From contig NZ_MSIF01000005.1 in NCBI RefSeq assembly GCF_001921215.1, positions 62,001 to 126,000 on the forward strand: DNA of 64,000 bases. The letters run 5' to 3'. Under the pieces are notes generated by a model. That model was not told the DNA's origin. It searched no databases and saw only the letters and a list, made by a program, of their open reading frames with translations. The position numbers and the translations under genes were made by a program. Below are positions 7,973-39,576 of this stretch, one piece after another. This DNA comes from Actinophytocola xinjiangensis (GTDB lineage Bacteria; Actinomycetota; Actinomycetes; Mycobacteriales; Pseudonocardiaceae). Each line of letters opens with the position of its first letter. Position 1 is the stretch's first letter.

Positions 7973-8017
7973 ATGCTCACCGCCAGTCAGGCCAGTCGGG
8001 TGTTGGGGGGACACGGG

Positions 8018-9457
8018 ATGACCGAGCCGTGGCAGCCGAGCGGCCCGCTGCCCCCACCACGGTCGCGCCCCCTGCCGCCGCGTCCCCTCACCGTGCGCCC
8101 CGGCGCCCACGCCGGCCCCCGCCCGCCGTTCGGCCCGACACCGCCGGCACCGGCCCCGGATTTCGGCCCGACACCAGGCCATCCACCCGCACCGCCGGGC
8201 CCGGCCTTCGGCCCAACCCCACCGCCAACCCCACCGCCAGGCCCAACCCCGCAGCCGGGCCCGGCCTTCGGCCCAGCGGGGCCGCCTGGCCAACCCCCAC
8301 CGCCAGGGTCGGCCCCCTGGCCGCCTGGTCCAGGCCACACGGGTCAGGCCCCCTGGCCAACCCACCACGGACCAGGCCAGGGCCAACGCTGGTTACCCAC
8401 TGCCCCCTCGCCCTGGCCGCAAACGTTTACGCCGACCGCCCCACCCTGGCTCGACTACCCGGGCCACGTCCCGCGCCCACGCCCGAAGTCCAACTCCGGC
8501 CCCCTGCTCGCCACCATCCTGGTCGGCGTCCTGCTGGTCACGGTCGGTCTCGTCGGGTTCCTCTCGGTCAGTGACCGGCGCGCCCCGGTGGCCGACGTGG
8601 GCTACGAACCGCCGGAGACCACCGCCGGCCCGCCGAGCAGCGCCGCCACCACGACAACCACGACCACCACCACGACAACCACGACCACCACCGCCGAGCG
8701 GACCGAACAGACCCAGCCCCCCACCCGAACCGACGGCCCGGTCCTCGCCCTCGGCGACAACCCCCTGTTCCTCGGCGAGAACGGCGCCCCGCGGGTCAGC
8801 TGCGACCTCCCGGCCTGGGACACCTCCCCCGACGGCGCCGCCCGGTTCTTCACCGCCGCCCTGCCGTGCCTGGACGCCGCCTGGGCCCCGGTCATGGACC
8901 GCGCCGGGCTGCCGTTCTTCCCGCCGGGACTCCAGTTCCCGGCCGGCACCGACTGGTCGAGCCCGTGTGGCTCGGTGGCCGGCGGCGCGGGCACGGTCGC
9001 CGCCTTCTACTGCGGCGAGAACAACACCCTCTACATGCCCTTCGCCGGGTTGCAGACCGACATGTACGGCCCGCACCCCGGCGTGTACCTCGCGGTCCTG
9101 TCCCACGAGTACGGCCACCACGTGCAGTCCATGAGCGGCGTGCTCGACGCCTACGCCAGGGCCCGCTACGACGCCGGGGTCGACAGCGAGGCCGGGCTGG
9201 AACTGTCGCGCCGGCTCGAACTCCAGGCGCAGTGCTTCTCCGGCATGTTCTTCGCCGCCGCCTACCCCCGGGGCTCGGTCGACGACGTCGTTCTCGGCGA
9301 GGCGCGGGGCTCCCAGGACCGGGGCGACCACAACCCGAACGCCCCGCGCGACCACGGCACCGACGCGCACACCTCGGCCTGGTGGGAGCAGGGCGCGCAG
9401 AAGAACCGCACCTATCAGTGCAACACCTGGCTCTCGCCGCCGGACGACGTCGGCTGA
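8018..9457 (+). CDS. Membrane-anchored neutral zinc metallopeptidase (YpfJ family)
   Basis: A 479-residue protein: a very proline-rich cytoplasmic N-terminus (about 150 residues), one membrane helix (LLATILVGVLLVTVGLVGFL), a run of 15 threonines, then the extracellular peptidase domain. The zinc motif is HEYGHH in AVLSHEYGHHVQSMSG, followed by ELQAQCFSGMFFAA, which carries the third-ligand region of the putative neutral zinc metallopeptidase family. The ATG at 8018 is used; an in-frame ATG at 7973 would add 15 unlikely residues and abut the divergent start. The cysteines in the outer domain may form disulphides. Substrate unknown. Confidence 0.88.
   Translation: MTEPWQPSGPLPPPRSRPLPPRPLTVRPGAHAGPRPPFGPTPPAPAPDFGPTPGHPPAPPGPAFGPTPPPTPPPGPTPQPGPAFGPAGPPGQPPPPGSAPWPPGPGHTGQAPWPTHHGPGQGQRWLPTAPSPWPQTFTPTAPPWLDYPGHVPRPRPKSNSGPLLATILVGVLLVTVGLVGFLSVSDRRAPVADVGYEPPETTAGPPSSAATTTTTTTTTTTTTTTAERTEQTQPPTRTDGPVLALGDNPLFLGENGAPRVSCDLPAWDTSPDGAARFFTAALPCLDAAWAPVMDRAGLPFFPPGLQFPAGTDWSSPCGSVAGGAGTVAAFYCGENNTLYMPFAGLQTDMYGPHPGVYLAVLSHEYGHHVQSMSGVLDAYARARYDAGVDSEAGLELSRRLELQAQCFSGMFFAAAYPRGSVDDVVLGEARGSQDRGDHNPNAPRDHGTDAHTSAWWEQGAQKNRTYQCNTWLSPPDDVG
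8648..8692 (+). repeat. 21-bp in-frame tandem repeat encoding a poly-threonine linker
   Basis: The unit ACC ACG ACA ACC ACG ACC ACC occurs twice without mismatch (8648-8668 and 8669-8689) and is followed by one more ACC. It encodes 15 threonines between the membrane helix and the peptidase domain. Such a stretch is probably an extended, possibly O-mannosylated, wall-spanning linker. Confidence 0.9.
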
Positions 9458-9923: not shown

Positions 9924-11033
9924 TCAGTCGGGGTCACTCGCCGGGGTGATCTTCTTGACGTAGAGGAGTCGGTCGCCGGCTTCCATGGCGTCCATGTCCG
10001 GGTGGTCGACGCGGTGCAGCTTCCCGCCGCGCACCACGCCGAGCACGATGTCGGGCAGGTGCCGGGGCGAGCCGCCGATCTCGGACCCCTCGACGTCGCG
10101 TTCGGCGATCGCGAGACCCGACTCGGGGGTGATCAGGTCCTCCACCATGTCCACGACCGTCGGCGTGTGCGTGGCCATGCCCAGCAGCCGCCCGGCCGTC
10201 TCACTGGAGACCACCACCGAGTCGGCACCGGACTGGCGCAGCAGGTGCACGTTCTCCGCCTCACGCACCGCCGACACGATCCTGGCCTTGGGCGCCAACT
10301 CGCGGGCGGTCAGGGTGACCAGCACGGCCGAGTCGTCCCGGTTGGCGGCCACGACCACCGCGCGCGCCCGGGGCACCCCGGCCACCCGCAGCACGTCCGA
10401 GCGGGTGCCGGAGCCGTGCACGGTCACCAGCCCGAGCGCCGAGGCCACCTCCAGCATCGCCTGGTCGGTGTCCACCACGACGATCCGCTCGGGCTCGACG
10501 CCGTCGCCGAGCACCGACCTGACCGCCGACCGCCCCTTGGTGCCGTAGCCGACGACCACCACGTGATCGCGCACCTTCGTCCTCCATCGTTGCAGCTTGA
10601 ACGTCTGGCGGGAGCGCTCGGTGAGCACCGCCAGGGTGGTGCCGACCAGCACGATCAGGAACATCACCCGCAGTGGCGTGATCACCAGGATGTTGACCAG
10701 CCTGGCGGTGTCGCTCACCGGGGTGATGTCACCGTAACCGGTGGTCGACAGGGACACCGTCGCGTAGTAGAAGGCGTCCAGCAGCGACAGGCCGTCGCCG
10801 TTGCCGTCGCGGTAGCCGTCGCGGTCCAGGTAGACCAGCAGCACGGCCACCAGCAGCGCGACGAACGCCCAGACCACCCGGCGCACGATCGAGGTCATCG
10901 GGCTGACCGAGCTCTCCGGCATGCGGATCACGCCGACCAGCGAGTGGTCGGGCCGGCCGGTCAGCGAGTCGGCACCCAGGCGCGCACCCAGCTTGCGCAC
11001 CAGCCGGCGCCCCCGCTCGTCAGGGCTCGTCAC
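9924..11033 (-). CDS. Voltage-independent potassium channel with RCK (TrkA-N) domain
   Basis: A 369-residue two-helix K+ channel. The first membrane helix is VWAFVALLVAVLLVYL, the pore contains the selectivity filter TTGYGD, and the second helix is LVNILVITPLRVMFLIVLVG. The cytoplasmic part is an RCK/TrkA-N domain with the dinucleotide loop VVVGYGTKGRSAV and a C-terminal TrkA-C-like segment. It should pass K+ under ligand control. Its position directly beside adnB matches M. tuberculosis Rv3200c. GTG start at 11033. Confidence 0.93.
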   Translation of the reverse strand: MTSPDERGRRLVRKLGARLGADSLTGRPDHSLVGVIRMPESSVSPMTSIVRRVVWAFVALLVAVLLVYLDRDGYRDGNGDGLSLLDAFYYATVSLSTTGYGDITPVSDTARLVNILVITPLRVMFLIVLVGTTLAVLTERSRQTFKLQRWRTKVRDHVVVVGYGTKGRSAVRSVLGDGVEPERIVVVDTDQAMLEVASALGLVTVHGSGTRSDVLRVAGVPRARAVVVAANRDDSAVLVTLTARELAPKARIVSAVREAENVHLLRQSGADSVVVSSETAGRLLGMATHTPTVVDMVEDLITPESGLAIAERDVEGSEIGGSPRHLPDIVLGVVRGGKLHRVDHPDMDAMEAGDRLLYVKKITPASDPD

Positions 11034-11070
11034 GGGCGGAGCGTAACCACGCGAGCGCCGGTGCGCGGCC

Positions 11071-14000
11071 TCAGGGTGCCGGGACGGTCGCCAGCAGGTC
11101 GCGGAGGCCCTCGCCGGTCAGCAGGTCCGCCGGGCGCAGGGTGTGGTCGAGGCGGACGTAGTGGAACGCGGCGCGCACGTCGTCGACGTCGGTGCCGCTC
11201 ATCGCGGCCCACGCCAGCCGGTAGGCGGCCAGCTGCACGGTCAGCGCCGGCAGGTCATCGTCGTCGGGCAGGGCGCCGGTCTTCCAGTCGACGACCGTCC
11301 AGCCGCCGCCGGGGTCGGCGAACACGGCGTCCATCCGGCCGCGCAACGCGATCCCGGCGACGTCGCAGGTGAACGAGACCTCGACCTCGTGCGGCACCCG
11401 GTCGGCCCAGGCGCTGGCGAGGAAGGACTCCTTGAGGCCGTCGAGGTCGGTGTCCGGGGCGGCGTCGGCGTCGGCGGAGCCGGGCAGTTCGTCGAGGTCG
11501 AGCAGGGCGCGGGCGCCGAAGCGTTGTTCCAGCCAGGCGTGGAAGGCGGTGCCCCGGCGGGCGGTCGGGTTGGGCGGGAAGGGCAGCGGGCGGCGCAGCC
11601 GGCGGGCCAGCGCGTCGGGGTCGCGGGCGAGTTCGACGAGCTGCACGACCGACAGCGACGCGGGCAGCGCGACCTGTTCGCGGCCGCGCGCGGCCTGGGC
11701 GCGTTCGGCGAGCAGGACGTCGGCGTCGGCCTCCCAGCCCTCCGGGTCCTCCTCCAGCATCGACAGCTGGGTGACCCCGGCGCGCAGCGCGGCGAGTTCG
11801 GCGCGGACCAGGACGGCGCCGGCGCGGACGTCGTCGCGGCCCAGGGCGAGCGGGTCGGACGGCCAGGTGGCGGCGCGGTCGGCGCCCACCAGCGGGTTCT
11901 CCTCGTCCTGCGCCGGCGGCGGGGCGAGCTGGTCGACCGAGGCCACCTGTTCGTCCATTGTGGACACAAGGTCGGCGACCTCGGTGAAGAAGTCCGACGG
12001 GCCCTTGGGTTTCGAGCCGGTGCGCCCCCACCAGTGCGCCGACACCAGCAGCGTGCGCTCGGCCCGGGTGAGCGCGACGTAACACAGCCGGCGCTCCTCG
12101 ACCAGGTCCCGCTCGGCGAAGGCCTCCGCGTGCCGGGTCAGCTCCAGCTCGACCTCCTTGCGGTTGGCCGCGCCCTCCAGGTTCAGCGTCGGCAGGTCGG
12201 CGACGTCGCCCCGCAGCGCGGCCGGCAGCTGGGTCACCGCGCGCAGCCACGACGAGGTCCGCTTGCGGCTGGGGAACACGTCGGTCACCAGGTGCGGCAC
12301 CGCCACGACCTGCCATTCCAGCCCCTTGGCCGAGTGCACGGTGAGGATCTGCACCCGGTCCTGCGCGACCTCAACCTCGCCCGGCTCCAGCCCGTCCTCG
12401 GCGGCCTCGGCGGCGGCCAGGTAGTCCAGCAGCGCCGACAGGCTCGCCGCCGGGCTGGTCTGGGCGTAGTCGGACACGACGTCGGCGAACTTGTTCAGGT
12501 GCGCCCGCCCGGCGCCACCCGGCCGCGCCTTGGCCTCCACGTCGAGCAGCATCACCCGCTCCACCTCGGCCACCAGCTCGGGCAGCGGCTGGTCGAGCCG
12601 GCGGCGCAACGCGCGCAGCTCGGCACCCAGCGCGCTGATCCGCCGGTGCCCCTCCGGCGAGTACCGGTCGGCCTCGCCCGGGTCGTCGATCGCGTCGACC
12701 AGCCCCGCCTGCTCGGCGCCCTCACCCGGCACGGTGTCCACCAGCGCGCCGGCCCCGTCGCCGGTCCGGAACGCCTGCCCCAGCTCGGCGGCGCGGCGCC
12801 ACAACGCCGCCAGGTCCGCCGCGCCCAGCCGCCAACGCGCCCCGGTCACCACCCGCGCGGCGGCCGTCCCGGCCAGCGGGTCGATCAACACCCGCAGCGC
12901 CGAGACCAGGTCCCGCACCTCCGGCTCGTCCAACAGCCCGCCGATGCCCACGACCTCCACCGGCAGCCCACGCACCCGCAACGCGGCGGCCAGATCGGTC
13001 ATGTCGGCGCGGCGGCGCACCAGCACCGCGGCCGTCGGCGGCCGGCCGGTCTCGGCGACCGCCTCCCGCCACCGCAGCGCGATCTGGTCGGCGACCCACT
13101 CGGTCTCCACCTCGGCGTCGGGCAGCAACGCGCACCGCACGTCGGCCGGCCCGGCGTGCTCGGGCGCCCGCAGCTCGTCGACCTCGATCCCGGCGGCCCG
13201 CAGCGGCGCGGAGATCGCGTTGGCCAACGCCAACACCTCGGGCGGATTGCGGAAGCTGGTGAGCAGCCCGTACCGGGTCGCCGGCCGTCGGTCAGGCCCC
13301 CGGGGGAAGTCGGTGGCGAACCGGGGCAGGTTGGCCGCGCTGGCGCCGCGCCAGCCGTAGATGGCCTGCACCGGGTCACCGACCGAGGTCACCGGCACCG
13401 GGTCGCCGTCGCCGCCGAACAGCGAACGCAGCAGGATCCGCTGGGCGTGGCCGGTGTCCTGGTACTCGTCGAGCAGCGCGGCGCCCCAGCGTTCCCGCTC
13501 GCCGCGCACAACCTCCGGATAGCCGGCCGCCAACCGCGCCGCCAGGGCCATCTGCTCGGCGAAGTCCAGCGCGCCGGCCCGCCGCTTCTGCTCGGCGTAG
13601 GCCGCGACCAACGGCCGCAACGCCAACCGGAACCGTTGCGTGGCAACAACCTCACGCAGATCCTGGGACAGCTCGGCGCGCTGACGCGGCCCGCGCGGCG
13701 CGTCCTCGATGGCCGCGCAGACCCGCTCGGTGTAGTCGGCCAACGCGTCCTCGTCGACCAGGTGCTCGGCCAGTTCGCCGGCCAGCTCCAGCAGGTAGCG
13801 GGTGACCGTCACCGGCACCCGGTCGGTGTCCAGGTCCCGGGTCCAGGTGGACACCACCCGGTGCGCGAGCTGCCAACAGGCGGTCTCGGTCAGCAGCCGC
13901 GCGCCGGGCTCGACCGGCAACCGCAGCCCGTGCTCGGCGACCAGCCGCCCGGCGTAGGCGTGATAGGTGAGCACCGTCGGCTCCCCCGCGTGCAGATCGG

Positions 14001-18077: not shown

Positions 18078-18245
18078 GTTTGTGGTTGTGGGTTGTGGGT
18101 TTGGGTCGTAGGGGCTTGGTGGTGGGTTGTGGGTTTCTGGGGTGCGGGTTTGGGTCGTGGGTGCGGGTTCGTGGGGGTGCGGGTTGTGGGTTCTTGGGGT
18201 GGGGGTTGTGGGTTTCCTTCGGGTGTGGGTTGTGGGGGGTTTTGT
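18078..18245 (+). repeat. G/T-rich low-complexity intergenic DNA
   Basis: The + strand consists of irregular repeats of GTGGGTT, GTTGTGGGTTT and GGGTCGTGG. It has no convincing reading frame and very few A or C bases. Many runs of three or more G make quadruplex formation plausible on this strand. The stretch lies between the ATL gene and the insertion sequence, and a similar G/T-rich stretch lies on the other side of the element at about 19980-20106. Confidence 0.8.
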
Positions 18246-18291
18246 CTGTCTTGCCCGGGTCTGGCGGTGGATTTTACGGGCGGCCACTCAC

Positions 18292-19821
18292 CTTGAGTTT
18301 TAACCTGTGCCGATGGGGTGGTGGGTGGCGGGGTGGTGGTTTCGGGTGCCGGGTGGGCGTCCTGGGCCGGGTCGGGTGGGTTTTGGTGCGCGGGTGGGGT
18401 GGGTGGTTTTCCGGTGGAGGTAGGGGAATCCGCGGCGGACTCTGTTGGGGGTGAGTGGGTGGGGGTGGGTGGGGGGTTTCTCCCAGGGGCGGCGTAGGTC
18501 GTGGGTGTGGTGGCGGGCGAGGCGGAGTTGGGTGTGGGCGGCGAGGATGAGCCAGGTCCAGCGGTCTGCTTGTTCGGGTGAGCGGGTGCGGGGGCGGGTC
18601 CAGCCGAGGGTGTGTTTGAGGAATCGGAAGGTGTGTTCGAGGTCGAACCGGCGTAGGAACGCTTGCCAGAGCCGGTTCATGCTGGTGGGGTCGAGGCTGG
18701 GGTGGGAGTGCCAGAGCCAGACGGGTTTCGGGGTTCGGGTGCCTGGCAACCGCTCCACGGTCAGGCGGATGATGGAGCCTGGGATGGTCGGCAGTGGGCC
18801 GGTGTGGTGTTTCCAGCCGTCCCGGCGGGCCAGGAGCGGGGAGAGCCGGGTCCAGCCGTCCGCGCGCGCCAGTCCGTAACGGTCGGTGACGGTGACGGTC
18901 GTGGTCTCGGGTTCGGGGTGAGTGGCCGGGTCAGGCAGTTTGAACGTCGGTCCGTGTTTGCGGGGTCGTCCGACGTCGCGGCCTGGTCCGCCGTCCCGAC
19001 GGCGTGGTGGCGGCGGCGGGAACCGGAACGTGCGGTCTGACCGCAACCGTCCCAGCACTTCGACCTGCTGGTCGGTGAGGAGATGAGCGAGTCGGGGCAG
19101 GTCATAGCCGGCGTCGCAGACCACCAGCACGGGCGGGTCACCCGCCCGCCAGTGCCCGGCCCGTTTCAGTCGTTCGAGCACGTCCCGGACCTGTCCGGCG
19201 GTCACCGCCGTCGTGTCATCACCCGGACGTAGTCGTTGAGCATCCAGCAGCCCGGTCCAGGACGTCCGGCCTGGTTCCAGCGCGGCGACAAACGAGTAGG
19301 GCCAGCCAGGGATCATCTGCGCTTGGCCTTTGCCCCGCGCGGAGACATGACAGTAAGACCGGTCCGGGCTGGTCGGAGCGTCCGGTCGTAACCACGCCGA
19401 CACGTCTACCGCCAACACGATCCGGCCCGCGTGGTCCCGCGGCACGCTCACACTCGTGACCGCCTGCCGTAACCGGGTGACGTCGACCCGACCCGAGGCC
19501 AGACCGTCATACAGAGCACCGTGACCACGTCGATGTTCCGCCGTCAACGACAACCCGACCAGCGTGGTCACCGGGCCCTCAGCGCATAACACCGCGTCAC
19601 ACAACTCGAACAACACATCACCACGACGTGGCAGACACCGATACAACTCCGTCCGGAACCCGGCCAACTCCCCGAACGCAGCACCCACCCCAGCATCGTG
19701 CACACTGACCACCGCAGCCCTTGAGTCGATCATCGTTCTGTCGCAAGACGAATGATCAACCAAGGGCTGCACCCATGATCACCCAGGGCCAGACACACCC
19801 ACCCCAACGTTAAAACTCAAG
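18292..19821. mobile_element. Complete insertion sequence, 1.53 kb, IS701-like
   Basis: Perfect 13-bp terminal inverted repeats bound the element: CTTGAGTTTTAAC at 18292-18304 and its complement at 19809-19821. The 5-bp direct repeats CTCAC at 18287-18291 and 19822-19826 look like the target-site duplication. One transposase gene fills almost the whole element and is intact. Because both the repeats and the duplication are undamaged, the insertion seems recent. It sits in intergenic G/T-rich DNA and disrupts no gene that I can see. Confidence 0.9.
18300..19772 (-). CDS. DDE transposase (IS701-like)
   Basis: A 490-residue transposase. Catalytic acidic residues are visible in an RNase H-like order: IVLAVDVSAWLRP, VLVVCDAGYD and RRFDLEHTFRFLKHTLGW. 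The N-terminal part has FRTELYRCL...ELCDAVLCAEGPV, and the C-terminal end is a Pro/Thr/His-rich basic tail that reads through the left inverted repeat. No frameshift or internal stop is present, so it is probably active. The start is drawn at 19772; an ATG at 19733 (MIDSRAAVV) is an alternative. The short space before the right terminal repeat must hold its promoter. Confidence 0.9.
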   Translation of the reverse strand: MQPLVDHSSCDRTMIDSRAAVVSVHDAGVGAAFGELAGFRTELYRCLPRRGDVLFELCDAVLCAEGPVTTLVGLSLTAEHRRGHGALYDGLASGRVDVTRLRQAVTSVSVPRDHAGRIVLAVDVSAWLRPDAPTSPDRSYCHVSARGKGQAQMIPGWPYSFVAALEPGRTSWTGLLDAQRLRPGDDTTAVTAGQVRDVLERLKRAGHWRAGDPPVLVVCDAGYDLPRLAHLLTDQQVEVLGRLRSDRTFRFPPPPPRRRDGGPGRDVGRPRKHGPTFKLPDPATHPEPETTTVTVTDRYGLARADGWTRLSPLLARRDGWKHHTGPLPTIPGSIIRLTVERLPGTRTPKPVWLWHSHPSLDPTSMNRLWQAFLRRFDLEHTFRFLKHTLGWTRPRTRSPEQADRWTWLILAAHTQLRLARHHTHDLRRPWEKPPTHPHPLTPNRVRRGFPYLHRKTTHPTRAPKPTRPGPGRPPGTRNHHPATHHPIGTG

Positions 19822-31156: not shown

Positions 31157-32335
31157 TCAGTAGGTGGGCAGGCTGGTGTCGACCTCCCGCGCCCAGCCGA
31201 GCACACCCCCGCCGACGTGCACCGCGTCCGCGAAACCGGCCTTGTGCAGCGCGGCGAGCGCCTCGGCCGACCGGCCACCGGACTTGCAGTGCAACACGAT
31301 CGGCTTGTCCTGCGGCAGTTCCGCCAGCGCCTCCCCGGTCAGGATGCGGTCCTTGGGGATCAGCACCGCGCCCGGGATGGAGACGATCTCGTACTCGTGC
31401 GGCTCCCGGACGTCGATCAGCGCGAAGTCCTCGCCCCGGTCGATCTTCTGCTTCAGCTCGATCGGGGTGATCGTGTGCCCGGCGGCGGCGCTCTGGGCGT
31501 CGTCGGAGACCACCCCGCAGAACGCGTCGTAGTCGATGAGCCCCTCGATCGGCTTGGTCTCCGGGTCCTTGCGGATCCTGATGGTCCGGTACGACATCTC
31601 CAGGGCGTCGTACACCATCAGCCGGCCGAGCAGCGGCTCGCCGATGCCCGTGAGCAGCTTGATCGCCTCGGTGACCATGACCGACCCGATGGAGGCGCAC
31701 AGCACACCGAGCACACCGCCCTCGGCGCACGAGGGCACCATCCCCGGCGGCGGCGGCTCCGGGTAGAGATCCCGGTAGTTGAGGCCCTGGCCGTTGGGCG
31801 CGTCCTCCCAGAACACGCTGACCTGGCCCTCGAACCGGAAGATCGACCCCCACACGTACGGCTTGCCCAGCAGGACGGCCGCGTCGTTCACGAGGTAACG
31901 CGTGGCGAAGTTGTCGGTGCCGTCCAGGATCAGGTCGTAGTCCCGGAACACGTCCAGCGCGTTCTCCGAGGTCAGCTGCTGGGTGTGCAGGTTGACCGTG
32001 ACGAACGGGTTGATCTCGGCCACCGACTCCTTGGCCGACTGCGCCTTGAGCTTGCCGATGTCGGACTGCCCGTGGATCACCTGCCGCTGCAGGTTCGACT
32101 CGTCCACCACATCGAAGTCGATCACGCCCAACGTCCCGACCCCGGCCGCCGCGAGGTAGAGCAGGGCCGGACTACCCAGCCCACCCGCCCCCACCACCAG
32201 GACCTTCGCGTTCTTGAGGCGCTTCTGACCATCAACCCCGACATCCGGGATGATGAGGTGACGGCTGTAACGAGCCACCTCGTCCTTGGTCAACTCCTCA
32301 GCTGGCTCGACAAGCGGCGGCAAGGTGCCTGCCAT
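31157..32335 (-). CDS. moeZ: Adenylyltransferase/sulphurtransferase MoeZ
   Basis: A 392-residue E1-like protein that adenylates and thiocarboxylates sulphur-carrier proteins for molybdopterin, cysteine and some natural products. The ThiF/MoeB domain has the nucleotide loop VVGAGGLGSPALLYLAAAG and DGTDNFATRYLVND. The C-terminal rhodanese domain carries the persulphide cysteine in VLHCKSGGRSAEALA. SD GAGGAGGG lies just before the ATG. Its product supports the molybdopterin cofactor of the nitrate reductase encoded 2 kb away, although the gene belongs to the conserved chromosomal block. Confidence 0.96.
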   Translation of the reverse strand: MAGTLPPLVEPAEELTKDEVARYSRHLIIPDVGVDGQKRLKNAKVLVVGAGGLGSPALLYLAAAGVGTLGVIDFDVVDESNLQRQVIHGQSDIGKLKAQSAKESVAEINPFVTVNLHTQQLTSENALDVFRDYDLILDGTDNFATRYLVNDAAVLLGKPYVWGSIFRFEGQVSVFWEDAPNGQGLNYRDLYPEPPPPGMVPSCAEGGVLGVLCASIGSVMVTEAIKLLTGIGEPLLGRLMVYDALEMSYRTIRIRKDPETKPIEGLIDYDAFCGVVSDDAQSAAAGHTITPIELKQKIDRGEDFALIDVREPHEYEIVSIPGAVLIPKDRILTGEALAELPQDKPIVLHCKSGGRSAEALAALHKAGFADAVHVGGGVLGWAREVDTSLPTY

Positions 32336-32569
32336 GAGTCCCTCCTCGGTCTACCGTCCCCCCAGTCTGGTCGGTTCAACGCTCCGGTCCCATCAGGGCT
32401 TCCGCATTCCCATATTCCGGGACGGGTTCACCCGATGGCCGGGAGCGAGTGGCCCGGCTTTGCCCGATGGCGTGGTGGCCGTCACCGACGGTCCGGCCGC
32501 AAGCCCCAGCCGTTACGCGATCGCCGGTGTACCGACACGTTGGGTGGACCTACGGGCGAGATGGCCAGG

Positions 32570-33049
32570 TCAGGCTCGGGTTTGCCAGTGCCCGGCCAAC
32601 GCCGGCCCCGCGGTGGGTAGCCAGCCGTGCAGGCCGAATGGTTCGCCTCGGCCGAACAGCTCGATGCCGGCCTGGGTGTAGGGCACGGTGTTGGTGGGGA
32701 GCTGGTCGAGGGGGAACCATTCGAGCTGCGAGCACTTGTGCGGCTCGGCGTTACGGGGTTCGCCGCGCCACTGGCGGGCGTGGAAGAAGAAGCCGACACG
32801 GCCTTCACCTTCCGGGTTGCGGCAGTGGAGCGCGGTGGCCATGTCGAGGTCGCCGCGGTCCAGGTCGATGGCGATCTCTTCGCGGGCTTCGCGGATGACG
32901 GCGGCGACCACATCTTCGCCGTCTTCGAGCTTGCCGGAGGGCAGGTTCCATTGACCGTCGGCGTAGCCGGTGTTGTGGCGTTGGGCCAGCAGGACATGCC
33001 CATCGCGGACCAGGAGGAGCAGGACGTCAACGACGCTGGTGTAAGGCAC
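32570..33049 (-). CDS. NUDIX hydrolase
   Basis: A 159-residue NUDIX protein. The box is complete: GKLEDGEDVVAAVIREAREE, with the substrate-side elements VLLAQRHNTGYADGQWNLPS before it. Size and architecture match small MutT-like house-cleaning or signalling nucleotide diphosphatases; the substrate cannot be told. It is the last gene of a minus-strand array with a kinase-like protein 45 bases upstream, two RNase H-like candidates and a radical SAM enzyme. It may therefore act on a nucleotide made or modified by that set. GTG start at 33049. Confidence 0.88.
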   Translation of the reverse strand: MPYTSVVDVLLLLVRDGHVLLAQRHNTGYADGQWNLPSGKLEDGEDVVAAVIREAREEIAIDLDRGDLDMATALHCRNPEGEGRVGFFFHARQWRGEPRNAEPHKCSQLEWFPLDQLPTNTVPYTQAGIELFGRGEPFGLHGWLPTAGPALAGHWQTRA

Positions 33050-33094
33050 GCGCGAGGTTCTTCCTGGGCTGAGTGTCGGTGTGGACGCCGCAGG

Positions 33095-33703
33095 TTATCG
33101 AGTGGAGACCAGCCCGGACTCGGCGACTCGCCCGGCGACCCATTCGACGCGCTGATCGGTTTCGAGCCCGAGCGGGACATCGATCACAGCGACACCGAGC
33201 TGGTCGTAGAGGGTGCGGAGGGTGGTCGCCGCAGTGTCCTGGAGGCCGGCGACCTTGGCGCGGAAGCCGTCGCTGGGCTGGTCGTAGTGGTCGTGGGTGA
33301 AGAACACGAGGTCGTAGGTAGGTGCCCAGGCGCGGCAGAAGTGCTCCATCGCGTCGAGCACCGTGGCATCGTTGCTGCCGGGCGCGATGTCCAGCAGCAT
33401 CCGAGCGTAGGCGAGCACGTTGACGATGGTCTTGTCGGCGATGAGGAGCTGGTGGTTGCGCGCGGTGCGGAGCTGGTAGCGGAGGTGGGCGGCGAACACG
33501 TCGACCTCGGCGACGAGGTCGAAGCTGCCGCGACCGTGGATGACGATCTCCTCCATGAAGGGGCTGGACCGGGCGGGTTCGCCCATGGCGGCGACGTTGA
33601 CGCCCTGACGCCGATAATGCGCGGTCAAGGCATGGATGAGGGTGGTCTTGCCCGAGGCATGCGTGCCGTCAATGGCGACGGTCGGGCAGTCGCGGATGGT
33701 CAT
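33095..33703 (-). CDS. P-loop nucleoside/nucleotide kinase-like protein
   Basis: A 202-residue protein with an N-terminal Walker A GTHASGKTTLIHAL in the form used by deoxynucleoside and thymidylate kinases (VAIDGTHASGKT). Further kinase-like elements are AAMGEPARSSPF (compare EP in dTMP kinase), LLIADKTIVNVLAYAR (a DR/DK-like position) and DLVFFTHDHYDQPSDGFR. Its ATG overlaps the stop of the upstream gene (ATGA), so it is translationally coupled in the radical SAM array. A thymidylate-kinase-type fold is likely; the phosphate acceptor is unknown. Confidence 0.75.
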   Translation of the reverse strand: MTIRDCPTVAIDGTHASGKTTLIHALTAHYRRQGVNVAAMGEPARSSPFMEEIVIHGRGSFDLVAEVDVFAAHLRYQLRTARNHQLLIADKTIVNVLAYARMLLDIAPGSNDATVLDAMEHFCRAWAPTYDLVFFTHDHYDQPSDGFRAKVAGLQDTAATTLRTLYDQLGVAVIDVPLGLETDQRVEWVAGRVAESGLVSTR

Positions 33704-34482
33704 GGAGCCTCGCGCAGCAGGTCGGTGAACGTGGGGTGCGAGAGCCAGGCAAAGGAGCCGTCGAGTTGGTCGGCGAGCAGCTGGTTCACGTTGAGGGTGC
33801 CGCGCCAGCGAGCCCGGCCGGTGGCGCGCAACGCGACCAGCGCGGTGGACACGCTGTGGCGCAGGTTCAGGACGCTGATGCGTTCGCGCGCCTCGACCGA
33901 GCCGTCTTCGAGGTAGGCGCGATGCAACGCGGTCATGGAAGCGCGGCGCAGCTCGGGTTGGGTGACATCGAGATCGAGGTCGGCACACACGTCAACCAGG
34001 CGACGGGACGTGCAGGTCAGGACGTGATCGGTGTCGTAGCGGGTATCGATGACCCTGCGGTCGGCCAACTCGCCGACGCGACGGGACAGCCAATTCTCGC
34101 GGGCGGCGGCCACGTGATGCAGTGGCTCGGCGCTCGCGTTGGCCAGCACGCCGAGATCGCTGGTGAACTGGTGGCCAGTGACGTGATCGGCAGCGGCGAA
34201 CGCTGCGCGCACCGCGTCGTTGGCCGAGGCGAGCAGTACGCCGGTCTCGTCGGGTTCTTCGACGTACATGCTCGTGTAGGAGAAGGGCAGCTCGGTCAGC
34301 TCGACAGGCTGGTCCATATCGGGCAGCGCGGCGTACACCACCGAGTAGCAGAAGGGCCGGTTGCCATTCTTGATCCGGTAGTTCTTCGTCCACTCCACGT
34401 CGATGCTGGCCCACAACGTCGATCCGGCCGGGCGGTGCGGCGCCGCGCGGCGCCGCGCGGGAAGGTTGGTCGTGACGATCAT
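33700..34482 (-). CDS. Unknown protein, possible RNase H-fold/DnaQ-like; paralogue of the next gene
   Basis: A 260-residue protein. The N-terminal STLWASIDVEWTKNY resembles the DxE motif I of DEDD exonucleases, and DHVTGHQFTSDLGVL resembles motif II. VIDTRYDTDHVL and LVDVCADLDLDV follow in the right order, but a clear motif III aspartate is missing (LNLRHSVSTALVAL). Its C-terminal ATGRARWRGTLNVNQLLAD aligns with STGRYRWASPIDVDQLVTD of the upstream neighbour. The start is ATG 34482, with AGGAAG five bases upstream; a longer frame to 34572 has no such site. Exonuclease activity is a hypothesis; homology to the neighbour is well supported. Confidence 0.6.
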   Translation of the reverse strand: MIVTTNLPARRRAAPHRPAGSTLWASIDVEWTKNYRIKNGNRPFCYSVVYAALPDMDQPVELTELPFSYTSMYVEEPDETGVLLASANDAVRAAFAAADHVTGHQFTSDLGVLANASAEPLHHVAAARENWLSRRVGELADRRVIDTRYDTDHVLTCTSRRLVDVCADLDLDVTQPELRRASMTALHRAYLEDGSVEARERISVLNLRHSVSTALVALRATGRARWRGTLNVNQLLADQLDGSFAWLSHPTFTDLLREAP

Positions 34483-34549
34483 GTCCGCTTCCTGAACGAG
34501 TCGGTGGTGATGGCCCAGCCATCCTGCCGGGCCACCATCGTGGGATGGT

Positions 34550-35269
34550 TCAGGACACGGGTGGGCTCTCACCGAGTTCAGCGAGACGGTCCCACGCGGC
34601 GTCAGTCACCAGTTGGTCGACGTCGATCGGCGATGCCCAGCGGTAGCGGCCGGTGCTGCGAGCCGCTATCAGAGCGACCGCAAGGATGCGGGTGAGGGCT
34701 CGGCGAACGGTGGCGGCCACACCGTCATTCCCGGGATCGGCATCGGCGTGAACGCCGACGGCGACCTTGAGGTCGGCGTGTTCGCACACGGCGGCGAGCG
34801 CGGCCGGGCCGGGGAAGTCGCCATCGTGCGCCGTGTCGATCATCCTGGCCATACCCCGCCCCTTGTCCGCGCGGTCGGTCCACTGTTGACGCACGCCATC
34901 CACACCGCGAAGCCGGCCACCAACGGTGGCCAGACGTTGCAGGTCGACGACGAAGTCATGCCCGGCCAGGAACTTCGCCTGTCTACGACAGGCCACCAGC
35001 AAATGATCCATCCGTTCGGCGAGCGCGCCAGGCCCGTCGCCGGGATCGGGGGTAAGCACCTGGTAGCCGAAGTTCAGCTGGTGGTCGTCGAGCACGAGCG
35101 TGCGCGTGCTCTCGACCGTGAGGTAGACCGTGCAACCCCATGTCGGTCGGGGCACGTAGTCCGACCAGGCCAGACCGACCGCCGCGAGCATCGGCCGGTC
35201 CTTGCCGAACGGTCGCTGTCCCGCTCCAAACGGCACGGTCGGCCACGCGAGGTTGGTGGTGCTACGCAT
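34550..35269 (-). CDS. Unknown protein, degenerate paralogue of the 33700-34482 product
   Basis: A 239-residue protein sharing ordered motifs with the next gene downstream: FLAGHDFVVDLQRLATV against HVTGHQFTSDLGVLANA, RMIDTAHDGDFPG against RVIDTRYDTDHVL, LAAVCEHADLKVAV against LVDVCADLDLDVTQ, and the shared TGRxRW segment near the end. The DxE position of the partner reads AAVGLAWSDY here, so if the fold is DnaQ-like this copy has lost motif I. ATG 35269 is chosen; it overlaps the radical SAM stop by eight bases. Possibly a non-catalytic partner or substrate-recognition subunit. Confidence 0.6.
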   Translation of the reverse strand: MRSTTNLAWPTVPFGAGQRPFGKDRPMLAAVGLAWSDYVPRPTWGCTVYLTVESTRTLVLDDHQLNFGYQVLTPDPGDGPGALAERMDHLLVACRRQAKFLAGHDFVVDLQRLATVGGRLRGVDGVRQQWTDRADKGRGMARMIDTAHDGDFPGPAALAAVCEHADLKVAVGVHADADPGNDGVAATVRRALTRILAVALIAARSTGRYRWASPIDVDQLVTDAAWDRLAELGESPPVS

Positions 35270-36251
35270 GGCCACCGCCGTGCGGGGTGGTGTAGATGCT
35301 GCTGCCCAGGTACTTGGCGACGTGGTTGCGCTGGAAGCGATAGCGCGCCCAGATCTCGCTGATCGACTCCTCCAACACGTTACCCAACGGCTCGAACAGG
35401 TCGGGCGCGTCGTAGACCGGCCACGCATTGGCCACCCCGTGCGGCTCGATACAGATCATGTGGCCCTCGGTCTCCGGCGTCCAAGCCGTCAGTCGCAGCG
35501 CGGGACGCCAGGCATAGGTGGCGGCCATGCTGCGCAGTTCGGCGAACTTGGCCTCCGCTTCGGCGTTGCTGATGAACTCGTGCTCGGCGAGGTCCAATGC
35601 GTTGCCTTTTCGCAACGGCATGATCAGTTTTAGCTTGCCCGCGTCGATGGTGTCGGCGATCTGGTAGGTGAACGGCAGACCGTGCAGGTCACTGCGCAGC
35701 ACCACGCACGACAGCGACAGCGGCAGACCGTGCTCCTGGAACACGCGGATGCCGGCCATCACCTTGTCGTAGTCACCCCGGACCCGCGCGGTGATCGCCC
35801 GCGGCCCCTCCAACCCAACGTTGACGTAACCGACCTTCCCGACCATTCGAGGCGCGTGCTGGAGCGCCCTGGTGGCGTTCGTGGGTATGCCCAGGATGAA
35901 GTCGGGCGAGTACATGTCCACGATGTCGCCGAAGTCGCGGCGCATCAATGGTTCCCCGCCGGACAGGAACACCCGGCCCACGCCGGCGAGATTGGCGCGC
36001 ATGGTGTCGAGCTGGTCCAGCGTCGGGTCCGGCCGTTGCAGGATCTCCGAACAGAAGTTGCAGTCGAAGTCGCACCGCTTCGTCACCTGCAAGATCACCG
36101 ACAACGGCGCGGTCAGGCCACCCAGCACCTCGTCCAGCGACGCCCCGCCAGCGAGCTGGAAATGATGCCCCCCGGTGAACACGACCGGACCTGAGGACTG
36201 CCCAGACATGCTCAACGCGGCGGGCATGGTCGGCATACCAAGATCAGTCAC
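35262..36251 (-). CDS. Radical SAM enzyme with SPASM-like C-terminus
   Basis: A 329-residue radical SAM protein. The cluster motif CxxxCxxC is CDFDCNFC near residue 60, the SAM-contact GGEP is in VFLSGGEPLMRRDF, and the central barrel continues with YVNVGLEGPRAITARVRGDYDKV. The C-terminal part (HMICIEPHGVANAWPVYD...LGNVLEESISEIW) resembles a SPASM/twitch domain but has only one cysteine, so an extra cluster is doubtful. GTG 36251 is chosen with GGGAG five bases upstream. It lies between three small genes and two paralogous unknown proteins. A peptide or a nucleotide-type substrate is possible; the sequence alone does not decide. Confidence 0.85.
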   Translation of the reverse strand: MTDLGMPTMPAALSMSGQSSGPVVFTGGHHFQLAGGASLDEVLGGLTAPLSVILQVTKRCDFDCNFCSEILQRPDPTLDQLDTMRANLAGVGRVFLSGGEPLMRRDFGDIVDMYSPDFILGIPTNATRALQHAPRMVGKVGYVNVGLEGPRAITARVRGDYDKVMAGIRVFQEHGLPLSLSCVVLRSDLHGLPFTYQIADTIDAGKLKLIMPLRKGNALDLAEHEFISNAEAEAKFAELRSMAATYAWRPALRLTAWTPETEGHMICIEPHGVANAWPVYDAPDLFEPLGNVLEESISEIWARYRFQRNHVAKYLGSSIYTTPHGGGHA

Positions 36252-36279
36252 GTGAACTCCCTGTTTCTCGTTGCCAGAA

Positions 36280-36585
36280 CTACAAATCTGAGTCTTCTGC
36301 GCGTCGCCCGTTGACGACCGGTCCAGTCCGCTGGCCCCGAGCCGATACACCACTTCGGCGATTGGTGTCGTCGCACCATTCGATGCGCAGTGGGGTGACC
36401 ATGCTGTGGAGGCGGAGGGCTCGTTCGGGGCTGTCGGAGATTCCGAGCATGGGATGTCCGTCGGTTCCTCGGCGGAAGACGACGACTTCTGAGTCACCGT
36501 TGTCCGAGGTGATCCACATGCAGGCGGCGTAGACGCCGTTGGCGGTGTCCTCGGTGGAGCTGAGGGTGAAGGGGACGATGTTCAT
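36280..36585 (-). CDS. Small unknown protein in the radical SAM array
   Basis: A 101-residue protein of no known family, starting at ATG 36585 with GGAGA seven bases upstream. It has ANGVYAACMWITSDNGDSE in the first third and HPMLGISDSPERALRLHSM in the middle, then a polar, arginine-rich tail. No signal peptide or membrane helix. It is 28 bases upstream of the radical SAM gene. The xYxACxxxT pattern recurs in the product of the next gene (GWYIACLVTV), so the two may be distantly related. A role as substrate or partner of the radical SAM enzyme is conceivable only from position. Confidence 0.55.
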   Translation of the reverse strand: MNIVPFTLSSTEDTANGVYAACMWITSDNGDSEVVVFRRGTDGHPMLGISDSPERALRLHSMVTPLRIEWCDDTNRRSGVSARGQRTGPVVNGRRAEDSDL

Positions 36586-36601
36586 CGCGGGTTCTCCGTT
36601 G

Positions 36602-36949
36602 TCAGGACTGGTGGTTGCGGGTCATCTGTCGGGCCTGCGATATCGGCACGCATTCCTCGTCCCAGAACCACAGGGTGCTTTCCATCGCGAGGGACAGGTA
36701 GGTGTCGTAGGTTCGGTCGTGGTTGACGGTGACCAGGCAGGCGATGTACCAGCCGTTGGTGTGTTCCTTGGACCGGAGCGTCGCGAGCAGCCACGGCCGG
36801 AGACCGACGGTCAGTTCACCGACGGTGCCGGTCACGTCGAGGGTCGTGACGGTCTCGTCGGTTCCATTGACAGCCCCAGCGAGAAGCAACACGTACTTCA
36901 GTTCTGTTTCCGCCGTCACGGGTGGTTCATCGTCGGTAATCAGGGTCAT
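36602..36949 (-). CDS. Small unknown protein in the radical SAM array
   Basis: A 115-residue cytoplasmic protein of unknown family. The ATG at 36949 follows GGAG by six bases. It begins with an acidic segment (MTLITDDEPPVTAETE), then YVLLLAGAVNGTDETVTTLDV, and ends STLWFWDEECVPISQARQM. The LAGAV-(D/N) segment is also found in the product of the upstream gene (PVLAGAVDSMDRTISLVV). It is spaced 16 bases from the following gene. Base composition is less G+C-rich than the conserved flanks. Confidence 0.55.
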   Translation of the reverse strand: MTLITDDEPPVTAETELKYVLLLAGAVNGTDETVTTLDVTGTVGELTVGLRPWLLATLRSKEHTNGWYIACLVTVNHDRTYDTYLSLAMESTLWFWDEECVPISQARQMTRNHQS

Positions 36950-36992
36950 ACCGGGGCTCCTTTGTGGAATTTGTATTGAGGGTTGATGGCGG

Positions 36993-37226
36993 TCATGCCC
37001 GCCGCTCCAACTCCCGTATCGCCGTACGGGCCGCCTTCATCAGCCATACGCACTCATCGACAGAGCTGACATACCAGCGATACGAGGGGTACCGATCGAC
37101 TTCAGGCCGCCACCAGGCGAACTCGACGCGTCCGTCGTCCATGACGGTCACGACGAGGCTGATCGTGCGGTCCATGGAGTCGACCGCACCGGCCAGGACG
37201 GGCCGAAGTGTGTCGTGAGCAGTCAT
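36993..37226 (-). CDS. Small unknown protein, first gene of the radical SAM array
   Basis: A 77-residue protein starting at ATG 37226 (MTAHDTLRPVLAGAVDSMD). It contains aromatic-rich VEFAWWRPEVDRYPSYRWYV and a basic C-terminal helix (MKAARTAIRELERRA). No known domain. GGGAG lies ten bases before the start. The longer frame to 37292 would run into the intergenic region and has no better start. As first gene it lies nearest the two palindromes of the divergent regulatory region. Confidence 0.5.
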   Translation of the reverse strand: MTAHDTLRPVLAGAVDSMDRTISLVVTVMDDGRVEFAWWRPEVDRYPSYRWYVSSVDECVWLMKAARTAIRELERRA

Positions 37227-37332
37227 GGTGCAGTCACTCCCTTGTAGCGCTCTCCCAGACAGGAACCGGCGAGCGAGCGCGAACCCGCCCACCGGCCCAG
37301 GTCGGCCACCGCTGGCACATCAGCTCCGGAGG

Positions 37333-37352
37333 AGTCGACTACGGCGTCGACT
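37333..37352. promoter_or_regulatory. Inverted repeat AGTCGAC-n6-GTCGACT
   Basis: AGTCGAC at 37333-37339 and GTCGACT at 37346-37352 are exact complements around TACGGC. The repeat lies in the 248-base divergent region between the small-gene array and the Scr1-type regulator gene. Symmetry and position suggest a binding site for a dimeric regulator; the regulator has not been shown. Confidence 0.5.
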
Positions 37353-37364
37353 ATTGAGACAGTA

Positions 37365-37384
37365 CAACTGTGCATGCACAGTTG
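37365..37384. promoter_or_regulatory. Perfect 20-bp palindrome in the divergent region
   Basis: CAACTGTGCATGCACAGTTG is a complete palindrome, 12 bases from the previous inverted repeat. A half-site-like ACAGTTGG also occurs at about 37452-37459, shortly before the TTG start of the HTH gene. It is A+T-richer than its surroundings. The most likely reader is the adjacent Scr1-type HTH protein, giving auto-control and control of the array. Confidence 0.6.
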
Positions 37385-37474
37385 GCTATGGCCGAAATGG
37401 GTGATGCGCGGGGCGACCGGATTGCGGCAGGATGTACTCCGGCGTGGCCAGACAGTTGGACATGAGGAGCGCGG

Positions 37475-38290
37475 TTGGCGACGAAGAACCCACAGCGAGT
37501 CGCACTCGGCGAAGCGCTCAACCGCGCACGCCTGAAAGCAGGACTGGCCGCGTCAGAGGTCGCCGCCGAACTCGGCTGGTACGAAGGCAAGGTTTCGAGA
37601 GTCGAGAGCGGAGTGCGCGCGATCGCCCGCGCAGAGGCTGACAAGCTCGCCGACCTGTACGACCTTGACGAGGAAGGGCGCAAGCGGCTGCACCTGCTCG
37701 CGGACGCCGCCCGCAAGAAGGAGTCGCCGGCAAGGGTCGCCGACTTCGCGCAGTCCTACATCACGATGGAACGTGCCGCCGTCGCGGTCAGCTACTACGC
37801 CCCCGACCTGGTGTGGGGACCGATGCAGCACCACGACTACGCGCGGGCGCTGCTCACGTGGGCCAGGACGCAGGACATCGAGGGAAGCGTCGCGGACCGG
37901 ATCGCACGACGGCTGCTGATCACCCGCGATGAAGGCCCAGAGGTTCGGTTGATGCTCGGTGAGGCTGCCGTCTGGCAACAGATCGGCGGCCCACGCACGA
38001 TGCGGTCGCAGCTTGAACTACTCCTCGAACTCGGTCAGCTACCGAACGTGCGGCTCAGGATCTTGCCGTTCACCGTCGGCGCACACCGCCTCCTCGGCGT
38101 GCCGTTCACACATCTGCGGCTCACGTCCCCAGACATCAGCCGCGTGTACCTGGAAGGCCAGACACACGCCACCTACATCGCAGATCCAGACGAGGTCGCC
38201 GTGTACGTCGAAGACTTCGAAAGCGACTGGTCAACGGCGCTCGACGAGGAGGAGTCTGCGACGATCCTCCGCAGGCACATCGGCAACTGA
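37475..38290 (+). CDS. Scr1-type helix-turn-helix regulator (XRE/DUF5753)
   Basis: A 271-residue protein with an N-terminal XRE helix-turn-helix (LGEALNRARLKAGLAASEVAAELGW...KVSRVESGVRAI) and a DUF5753 domain (VSYYAPDLVWGPMQHHDYARALL, QLPNVRLRILPFTVGAH, VYLEGQTHATYI). NCBI calls such proteins Scr1-type toxin-antitoxin antitoxin-like regulators, found in many copies in streptomycetes and relatives beside DUF397 genes. The start is TTG 37475, six bases after GAGGAG. The DUF397 gene follows 11 bases after the stop. It is divergent from the radical SAM array and probably controls it. Confidence 0.9.
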   Translation: MATKNPQRVALGEALNRARLKAGLAASEVAAELGWYEGKVSRVESGVRAIARAEADKLADLYDLDEEGRKRLHLLADAARKKESPARVADFAQSYITMERAAVAVSYYAPDLVWGPMQHHDYARALLTWARTQDIEGSVADRIARRLLITRDEGPEVRLMLGEAAVWQQIGGPRTMRSQLELLLELGQLPNVRLRILPFTVGAHRLLGVPFTHLRLTSPDISRVYLEGQTHATYIADPDEVAVYVEDFESDWSTALDEEESATILRRHIGN

Positions 38291-38301
38291 CGGAGGAAGA
38301 A

Positions 38302-38475
38302 GTGGAGGAGTGGCGTAAGTCATCGCGGACTCAAGGGCAGACGAACTGCGTCGAGATCCACCCACAGGGGCTGGTCCGCGACAGCAAGCAGCGGTCTGGC
38401 CCGCACCTTCGGGTTGATCTTGCGACCCTGACGGCCGCCATCAAGGCCGGCAGGGTGGACTCACGAGGCGAGTAG
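38302..38475 (+). CDS. DUF397 small protein
   Basis: A 57-residue protein with the DUF397 signature: WRKSSRTQGQTNCVEI, then LVRDSKQRSGPHL and the closing hydrophobic helix (LATLTAAIKAGRV). GTG start directly after GGAGGAAGAA. DUF397 proteins pair with Scr1-type HTH regulators; in the studied Streptomyces pairs the two form a toxin-antitoxin-like or regulatory couple. No other partner is present, so it is part of the control module of this island. Confidence 0.88.
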   Translation: MEEWRKSSRTQGQTNCVEIHPQGLVRDSKQRSGPHLRVDLATLTAAIKAGRVDSRGE

Positions 38476-38493
38476 CCAGAGACCAACGGAGCT

Positions 38494-38537
38494 CAGTGGC
38501 CCCCGGCGCCTCCGCAGAATGAGCGCTGGGGCCGCTG
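38494..38537. terminator. Stem-loop between convergent genes, possible bidirectional terminator
   Basis: CAGTGGCCCC (38494-38503) pairs with GGGGCCGCTG (38528-38537) with one G-U pair and a 24-base loop. It lies between the ends of the DUF397 gene and the convergent DUF3152 gene. There is no U-tract. Confidence 0.4.
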
Positions 38538-38559
38538 ACCTCCGCACTCGCCTGGGGAC

Positions 38560-39576
38560 TCACTGGGCCTGCGGATTGGGCCAGGGGTTGTACCGGCACG
38601 TCTTGCCGTCGGCCTGGACCGGGTCCGAGTTCCCCACCTGGTCGTTGAGCCGGGCGACGTAGTCGTTGGCCACCCCGAAGCTCTGCTGCATCATCACCGG
38701 CGCCAGCTCACCGGACTTCGCGCACCCGACGTGCCCGTTGCCGAACGCGTGCCCGATCTCGTGGTTGATCGCGTACGCCCGGTAGTTGCCCATGTCGCCG
38801 CCGAACGCGACCGCCCCGCGCACCCAGCGCGCCAGGTTGATCATCACCCGGCCCTCGCTGCGTCGCCAGCAGGACGTCTCGTAGCGGATCGAGTACCCGC
38901 AGTACTCCGCCTTGTGCACGGTCTCCGGTGTCGCCAGCGTGATCCGGATGTCGGGCTCGCCCTGCGAACCGTCGACCCGCTGCACCGACACCTGACCGGT
39001 CGCCGCCCACCCGCGCGGCTCGGCCAGGGTCCCGTCGACCAGGGACGCGAAGGTGCCTTCGCCGCCCTGGGAGCGCAGGTCGATGCCGCGTTCGATCTCG
39101 ATGGTGTAGGTGAACAGTTCACCGCCGCTGCCCAGGCGTTTGCCCTTCCCGGGCAGGATGTCGAACTCGCCCTGGCCGGCCTGGGCGAACGGCGCGCCCT
39201 TCGGCAGTTCGGCGGTGGGGATGTTCAGGTCCGGCGGAACAGCCGGCTTCTCCGTGGCTTTCGGCTCCTCGACGACTTCCTCGCCGGAGGCCGGTGGCTG
39301 CTCGCTGCGCACCCCGGCCAGCCCGGCGTCCTCGGCCGGATCGCCGCCGCGCCGGATGTCCATGAACACCAGCACGGTGATGGCGATCAGCACGGGGACG
39401 GCGTAGATCCGCCACCCGTAGGCCGACAGGAAGCCACGGACCCCCCGTCTCCGGGGCCTGCGCTTTCGCCGCTGTCCGCGTGGAGTCTCACCATCGGGCT
39501 GCCATGAGGCCGCCAGTGGTTGCGCCGAGGTGCGGCGCGCTCCCGCGCGGTACCGATCCTGGACGCGCTTCGTCAC
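38560..39576 (-). CDS. DUF3152 membrane-anchored metzincin-like protein
   Basis: A 338-residue protein: a basic N-terminus (RGQRRKRRPRRRGVRG), one membrane helix (WRIYAVPVLIAITVLVFM), a Pro/Glu-rich linker, and a C-terminal DUF3152 domain outside the cell. That domain contains NHEIGHAFGNGH, an extended HExxHxxGxxH zinc motif. The conserved cysteines in EYCGYSIRYETSCW and VGCAKSG may be disulphide-bonded. This is the counterpart of Rv3207c, next to moeZ and a TetR gene in M. tuberculosis. Proteolytic activity is inferred from the motif only. Confidence 0.9.
   Translation of the reverse strand: MTKRVQDRYRAGARRTSAQPLAASWQPDGETPRGQRRKRRPRRRGVRGFLSAYGWRIYAVPVLIAITVLVFMDIRRGGDPAEDAGLAGVRSEQPPASGEEVVEEPKATEKPAVPPDLNIPTAELPKGAPFAQAGQGEFDILPGKGKRLGSGGELFTYTIEIERGIDLRSQGGEGTFASLVDGTLAEPRGWAATGQVSVQRVDGSQGEPDIRITLATPETVHKAEYCGYSIRYETSCWRRSEGRVMINLARWVRGAVAFGGDMGNYRAYAINHEIGHAFGNGHVGCAKSGELAPVMMQQSFGVANDYVARLNDQVGNSDPVQADGKTCRYNPWPNPQAQ

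Follow-up and report, generated by a model that had tools for sequence, protein, structure and literature searches.

The window analysed here is a stretch of 64,000 nucleotides of the Actinophytocola xinjiangensis contig NZ_MSIF01000005.1 (62,001–126,000, forward strand), and coordinates given without a locus name are positions within it. Between 32570 and 37226 it contains eight open reading frames (ORFs), all on the minus strand, separated from g1 to the NUDIX gene by gaps of 43, 16, 28, −8, 67, −4 and 45 bases, and a regulator/DUF397 gene pair is divergent from them (Table 1). Five of the eight, encoding a radical SAM enzyme, the proteins g5 and g6, a nucleotide-kinase-like P-loop protein and a NUDIX hydrolase, form a cassette whose conservation as a unit extends over phages, the neighbourhood of conjugative-element genes and chromosomal islands. 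An earlier, sequence-only reading had described eight tightly spaced or overlapping genes with a divergent HTH/DUF397 pair, a layout which the ORF coordinates, the gaps and the Pfam matches bear out. Its proposal that all eight genes form one system was rejected because g1–g3 are without relatives at other loci; the conserved unit is the five-gene series radical SAM-g5-g6-kinase-NUDIX.

Table 1. Genes and features at the locus, in window coordinates.
Feature	Position	Strand	Remarks
g1	36993–37226	−	Small ORF of unknown family, outside the conserved core
g2	36602–36949	−	Small ORF of unknown family, outside the conserved core
g3	36280–36585	−	Small ORF of unknown family, outside the conserved core
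Radical SAM enzyme, 329 aa	35262–36251	−	Core gene 1; PF04055
g5, 239 aa	34550–35269	−	Core gene 2; degenerate g6 paralogue
g6, 260 aa	33700–34482	−	Core gene 3; DEDD 3'-5' exonuclease fold
Nucleotide-kinase-like P-loop protein, 202 aa	33095–33703	−	Core gene 4; AAA_28
NUDIX hydrolase, 159 aa	32570–33049	−	Core gene 5; PF00293
HTH_31/DUF5753 regulator	37475–38290	+	Divergent from the array; DUF5753 E 1.3e-42, HTH_31 E 8e-9
DUF397 protein, 57 aa	38302–38475	+	PF04149 E 4.3e-13; CxE and RDS motifs
Perfect 20-base palindrome	37365–37384		Between g1 and the HTH gene; candidate operator
Segment inserted here or lost from congeners	32423–38562		Empty site in 5/5 congeners
ThiF/rhodanese (moeZ-like) flank gene	31157–32335		
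DUF3152 flank gene	38560–39576		

Searching GTDB contigs with the radical SAM protein as query yielded seven loci, five of which (L009–L012 and L014) carry the cassette in the order of the window. The five genes are complete and in order at 15 of the 22 loci examined (the window, L009–L012, L014, L040–L042, L047–L051 and L089), a count which overstates independence because the 15 include several phages that are related to one another. Among the seven others, L013 is cut by the contig end and its g5 is interrupted by a stop; what remains of g6, together with the kinase and NUDIX genes, is found on L021 of the same genome. The 8.9-kb contig of L039 carries g5-g6-kinase-NUDIX and lacks a radical SAM gene, in whose place stands an integrase gene (7501–8454); the NUDIX gene was not found at L043, L045 is a g6 fragment and L046 is decayed. 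At L044 (8038–10533) the genes of a divergent relative run kinase-radical SAM-g6; neither g5 nor NUDIX was found there, and this is perhaps a minimal or ancestral form. The match at L015 (4881–5540, Nocardia amamiensis) is partial, a 70-residue segment 77% identical to the radical SAM protein within a 220-codon open frame; no g6 was found in this genome, and the match is probably a radical SAM remnant.

When g6 alone served as query, 4 of the 297 genomes searched in the window's family had it, as did a single genome among 396 from the phylum. A g6 profile matched 5/394 genomes in the family of a Streptomyces, 4/250 in the family of an Actinomadura, 1/200 in the window's order and 2/200 in the order of the Actinomadura, these profile counts including centre genomes and repeats. 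In IMG/VR, scans with g6 and with the kinase-like protein each return the same five viral contigs, and the radical SAM scan finds these five near full length together with 33 partial matches of 21–37% identity. Genes 39–43 of Streptomyces phage Gilgamesh (MN234216) reproduce the cassette gene by gene and in its order, with 64% (radical SAM), 51% (g6) and 50% (kinase) identity to the window proteins. Their annotation goes no further than hypothetical proteins, a thymidylate kinase and a MutT-like hydrolase, and their neighbouring regulators differ from those of the window. Among GenBank phages, g6 and the kinase-like protein match Gilgamesh only (two records), while the radical SAM enzyme matches Gilgamesh and, over part of its length at 30.5% identity, phage Success (two records). 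Plasmids gave no g6 match and, for the radical SAM enzyme, only pqqE-type matches of 29.9% identity in three Thioclava records.

The phage contig L048 shows 74–77% DNA identity to L047, L050, L051, Gilgamesh and L011 across the five genes only, and shares one further upstream stretch with L049, these comparisons being limited to the retrieved stretches. A gene of the endonuclease/exonuclease/phosphatase family (L048 7085–8005) is placed just upstream of its cassette, and the gene before it (region from 6135), common to L049 (74–805), looks alike by eye. The cassette is under purifying selection, with crude Nei-Gojobori dN/dS values of 0.12–0.57 in 40/40 comparisons of 8 locus pairs. The five genes are not scattered members lacking a common neighbourhood. 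They stay together in hosts that are not related, while their flanks vary, which the sequence-only reading had named as support for a system. No description of the cassette was found in full-text literature, in which the coverage of subscription papers is slight.

The Gilgamesh cassette has an integrase/HTH region on one side and the portal gene on the other, and the presence of the integrase suggests that this phage is temperate. At L010 (Streptomyces sp. H27-C3) the five genes separate portal/major head genes from those for the tail sheath/tube. Near other cassettes there are a relaxase gene (L012), FtsK and integrase genes (L043) and the integrase gene of L039 mentioned above. It appears from this distribution over phages, conjugative-element surroundings and chromosomal islands that the five genes move as a block. 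When the ORFs of 17 loci were compared, a BLASTP group containing histidine-kinase-like ATPases spanned eight of them (family checked for L012 and L040), and beyond regulators, related-phage genes and one larger upstream protein no ORF was common to at least three. This larger protein, with a PYITAWS motif, is encoded upstream of position 10001 at L014 (Actinocorallia) and is shared with the five phage-type loci L011, L047, L050, L051 and L089, which makes it a possible optional member of the cassette.

The set had been read as less G+C-rich and probably acquired. The segment has a G+C content of 0.661 compared with 0.724 in the remaining window, and none of 183 other equal-sized stretches of the window falls below 0.687. 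In a genus sample of six genomes, the window's own included, the DUF3152 neighbour is present in all six, and the other five, which lack the cassette, have the ThiF/rhodanese gene directly beside it. DNA similarity to these five congeners ends at 32348–32422 and restarts at 38563–38567. Because the congeners show adjacent flanks, either about 6.1 kb were inserted in the window's genome or they were lost from the other five; the empty site and the occurrence in unrelated hosts support acquisition. No mobility gene was recognised among the genes of the segment, and no exact word of 9–14 bases that could mark a target-site duplication is common to 32330–32600 and 38440–38640.

The radical SAM enzyme (PF04055, E 1.8e-13) contains the CxxxCxxC cluster motif at C60/C64/C67 and a GGEP motif. 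Viperins are its best global fold matches, and in the fold comparison the viperin fold extends through the C-terminal part. By sequence it is far from this family, scoring 22.2 bits against the cut-off of 180 for NCBIfam viperin NF038283, while its match to PADLOC pVip (29.6 bits) covers residues 52–143 only and a sub-profile of residues 90–322 found no PDB match below E 0.01. No true viperin scored above the cut-off in 198 actinobacterial genomes. The earlier statement that the enzyme is not a viperin therefore holds by sequence, although viperins match it best in global fold. Viperin is the nearest working model: the enzyme would work like one and is not classed as one because its profile score falls short. 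Prokaryotic viperins (pVips) are like it in the radical SAM fold, the single cluster motif and the kinase-like gene in the operon, for which PADLOC has a class of viperins associated with kinases; the cassette differs in its sequence distance and its regular partners g5, g6 and NUDIX. The analogy with viperins beside nucleotide kinases, drawn before any fold was compared, is strengthened by this comparison.

The kinase-like and NUDIX assignments of the sequence-only reading are borne out by family matches. The kinase-like protein matches AAA_28 (E 2.6e-12), has the P-loop GTHASGKTT and a D-K-T motif, and is similar to phrog_2107, a thymidylate kinase (E 1e-16), while its score with the dTMP kinase model TIGR00041 is 17.7 bits against a cut-off of 83.25. 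The NUDIX hydrolase (PF00293, E 4.7e-21) possesses a complete Nudix box, GX5EX7REUXEEXGU, in which G39, E45, R53, E54, E57 and E58 are the same in all 16 sequences counted. The cassette can take up additional nucleotide pyrophosphatases, since it is followed at L042 by a MazG-like pyrophosphohydrolase gene (8253–8594, Pfam above cut-off) and at L041 by a second NUDIX-like gene (10685–11230, weak profile match only).

For g5 and g6 no Pfam family was found above cut-off. They had been noticed as two related proteins, and their paralogy is supported by BLASTP (27% identity, E 1e-12) and by profile-profile comparison with hhalign (probability 98.5%, E 3.7e-15). The fold of g6 is that of a DEDD 3'-5' exonuclease, with acids at D28-x-E30, at D109 in a GHQxxxD motif and at D146/D150. 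D28, E30 and D109 are conserved; the fourth acid was not seen, and a conserved R208-H209 motif occupies that region. In alignments g5 lacks the D-x-E motif. Sequence searches with g6 gave chance matches only against PDB sequences and, in Pfam with E values as high as 10 admitted, RNase_H_2 (E 0.2) and DUF3459 (E 0.37), each in one of six members. The protein g6 shares the fold, the D-x-E and the GHQxxxD with RNase T, TREX and the proofreading domains of family-B polymerases, and differs from them by the fourth acid, which was not found, the degenerate paralogous partner and the linkage to radical SAM, kinase and NUDIX genes. A precedent for DEDD enzymes in actinomycete islands is given by the diDNases, which likewise occur in mobile islands beside HTH genes (PMC11706625); this is a likeness of context and not a subfamily assignment.

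Control of the array by an Scr1/DUF397 pair, the initial proposal, is supported only in part. Scanning of chosen neighbours confirmed DUF5753 regulator genes at eight loci (the window, L009, L010, L012, L040, L046, L048 and L051), their distance to the cassette ranging from 0.2 to about 6 kb, although the called part of the gene at L012, L046 and L051 showed no HTH domain; other loci carry other regulators. The window pair shows both families and the CxE and RDS motifs described for DUF397 (PMC7159879), and differs from other HTH_31/DUF5753 and DUF397 pairs in the adjoining enzyme cassette. The palindrome between g1 and the regulator gene is the only one of at least 14 bases in 36901–37600, and the longest in 13 other upstream regions has 16 bases; the 10-base core of the window palindrome is absent from the 13 loci with which it was compared. 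Judging from the sequence, the window cassette is probably switched by the divergent pair through this candidate operator, and other regulators would take over elsewhere.

The explanation tentatively favoured, at somewhat less than even probability, is that the cassette is a mobile, host-beneficial system, most likely directed against phages or mobile elements and acting via a modified nucleotide. Defence or competition is the best reading for a group of nucleotide-type enzymes that occurs in phages, in chromosomal islands and in the vicinity of conjugative genes. The roles of the enzymes follow, by inference, from their families and folds. Viperin produces chain-terminating nucleotides (PMC12926258, PMC10732462). 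The viperin-like enzyme of the cassette may similarly alter a nucleotide by 5'-deoxyadenosyl radical chemistry, the kinase-like protein would supply or charge this nucleotide, and the NUDIX hydrolase would hydrolyse surplus or stray di- and triphosphates. The pair of exonuclease fold and degenerate partner may act on nucleic acid, by releasing nucleotides for the pathway, by trimming ends that bear the analogue, or by sensing invader DNA or RNA.

A more specific form, speculative and less probable, is an undescribed nucleotide-based immune system of actinobacteria and temperate phages, in which a viperin-fold enzyme outside the family, with its own kinase and NUDIX hydrolase, makes the analogue, the heteromeric exonuclease-like pair senses or processes analogue-bearing nucleic acid, and the lysogen is protected from competing phages. 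If this is true, bacterial viperin-type nucleotide chemistry would reach beyond the viperin sequence family with a dedicated, phage-carried set of partners, and a defined five-gene unit, present in a phage isolated on laboratory Streptomyces, would be at hand for finding a new antiviral nucleotide. Whatever its function, the cassette is an unannotated unit common to phages, conjugative-type elements and chromosomes.

It is unlikely, though worth weighing, that the cassette is instead a phage auxiliary pathway which produces modified nucleotides, or removes them, for the DNA or RNA of the element itself, in modification or counter-defence, and was kept in chromosomes after capture. The five IMG/VR contigs and Gilgamesh fit this, as do the MazG-like and second NUDIX-like genes beside the cassette, and a thymidylate-kinase-like protein with a MutT-like NUDIX is typical of nucleotide remodelling. 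However, chromosomes and the surroundings of conjugative-element genes harbour the cassette too, purifying selection acts on it, the unit has no transferase or known DNA-modifying enzyme, and its placement in Gilgamesh, with the integrase/regulator region on one side and the portal gene on the other, also argues against such a pathway.

Still lower stands a peptide maturation cassette of the kind that makes ribosomally synthesized and post-translationally modified peptides, where the radical SAM enzyme would modify a small encoded peptide. SkfB, SuiB and PqqE are close structural matches of the enzyme as well, SkfB being first by Foldseek E-value, and several loci have small ORFs ahead of the radical SAM gene. 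However, only the three cysteine columns of the cluster motif are conserved in all 17 radical SAM sequences counted, with no fourth cysteine for an auxiliary cluster; the C-terminal part is twitch-like without further conserved cysteines, and its SPASM match is below the Pfam cut-off (E 0.098, 13.4 versus 21.5 bits). A peptide role of g1–g3, the alternative in the sequence-only reading, is unlikely because they are not in the conserved set: none has a tblastn match at E 0.01 in 119 loci (the window's own excluded), g3 has no family in Pfam, NCBIfam, PADLOC or PHROG, and the best matches of g2 (NCBIfam, E 0.088) and g1 (Pfam, E 0.11) are insignificant. Among the BLASTP matches common to at least three of the 17 loci there was no small ORF shared by unrelated loci within 2.5 kb, a comparison which very short peptides could escape. 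By Pfam, none of the five genes was recognised as encoding a transporter, a protease or a leader-binding domain, and the kinase and the NUDIX hydrolase would have no obvious role.

There is little probability that the cassette makes a small nucleoside natural product in the manner of BlsE, acting outside the cell. The PDB relatives include AbmM and the cytosylglucuronate decarboxylase BlsE, and the hosts are actinobacterial. However, BlsE, AbmM and MoaA, of which AbmM presumably acts on a nucleoside or nucleotide like the others, show lower fold similarity to the radical SAM enzyme than viperin does and sit in gene neighbourhoods unlike that of the cassette. The unit has no export, tailoring or resistance gene, five genes are few, and antibiotic pathways are unusual in phages. 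A stress or DNA-damage module with the HTH/DUF397 pair as an unrelated toxin-antitoxin or regulator passenger is equally improbable, since it leaves the radical SAM enzyme and the five-gene linkage unexplained, even though a MutT-type NUDIX and an exonuclease fold suit nucleotide sanitation, HTH plus DUF397 has been put forward as a toxin-antitoxin pair (PMC7159879), and NUDIX genes are usual in actinomycete conjugative elements (PMC11706625).

Elsewhere in the window, the region 18080–19772 contains a GT-biased low-complexity stretch with a period-7 TTGTGGG-like array at 18080–18236. It adjoins a minus-strand ORF of 490 residues (18300–19772) that looks by eye like a DDE transposase, and the stretch and this putative transposase ORF coincide with extreme skew at 18–19 kb.

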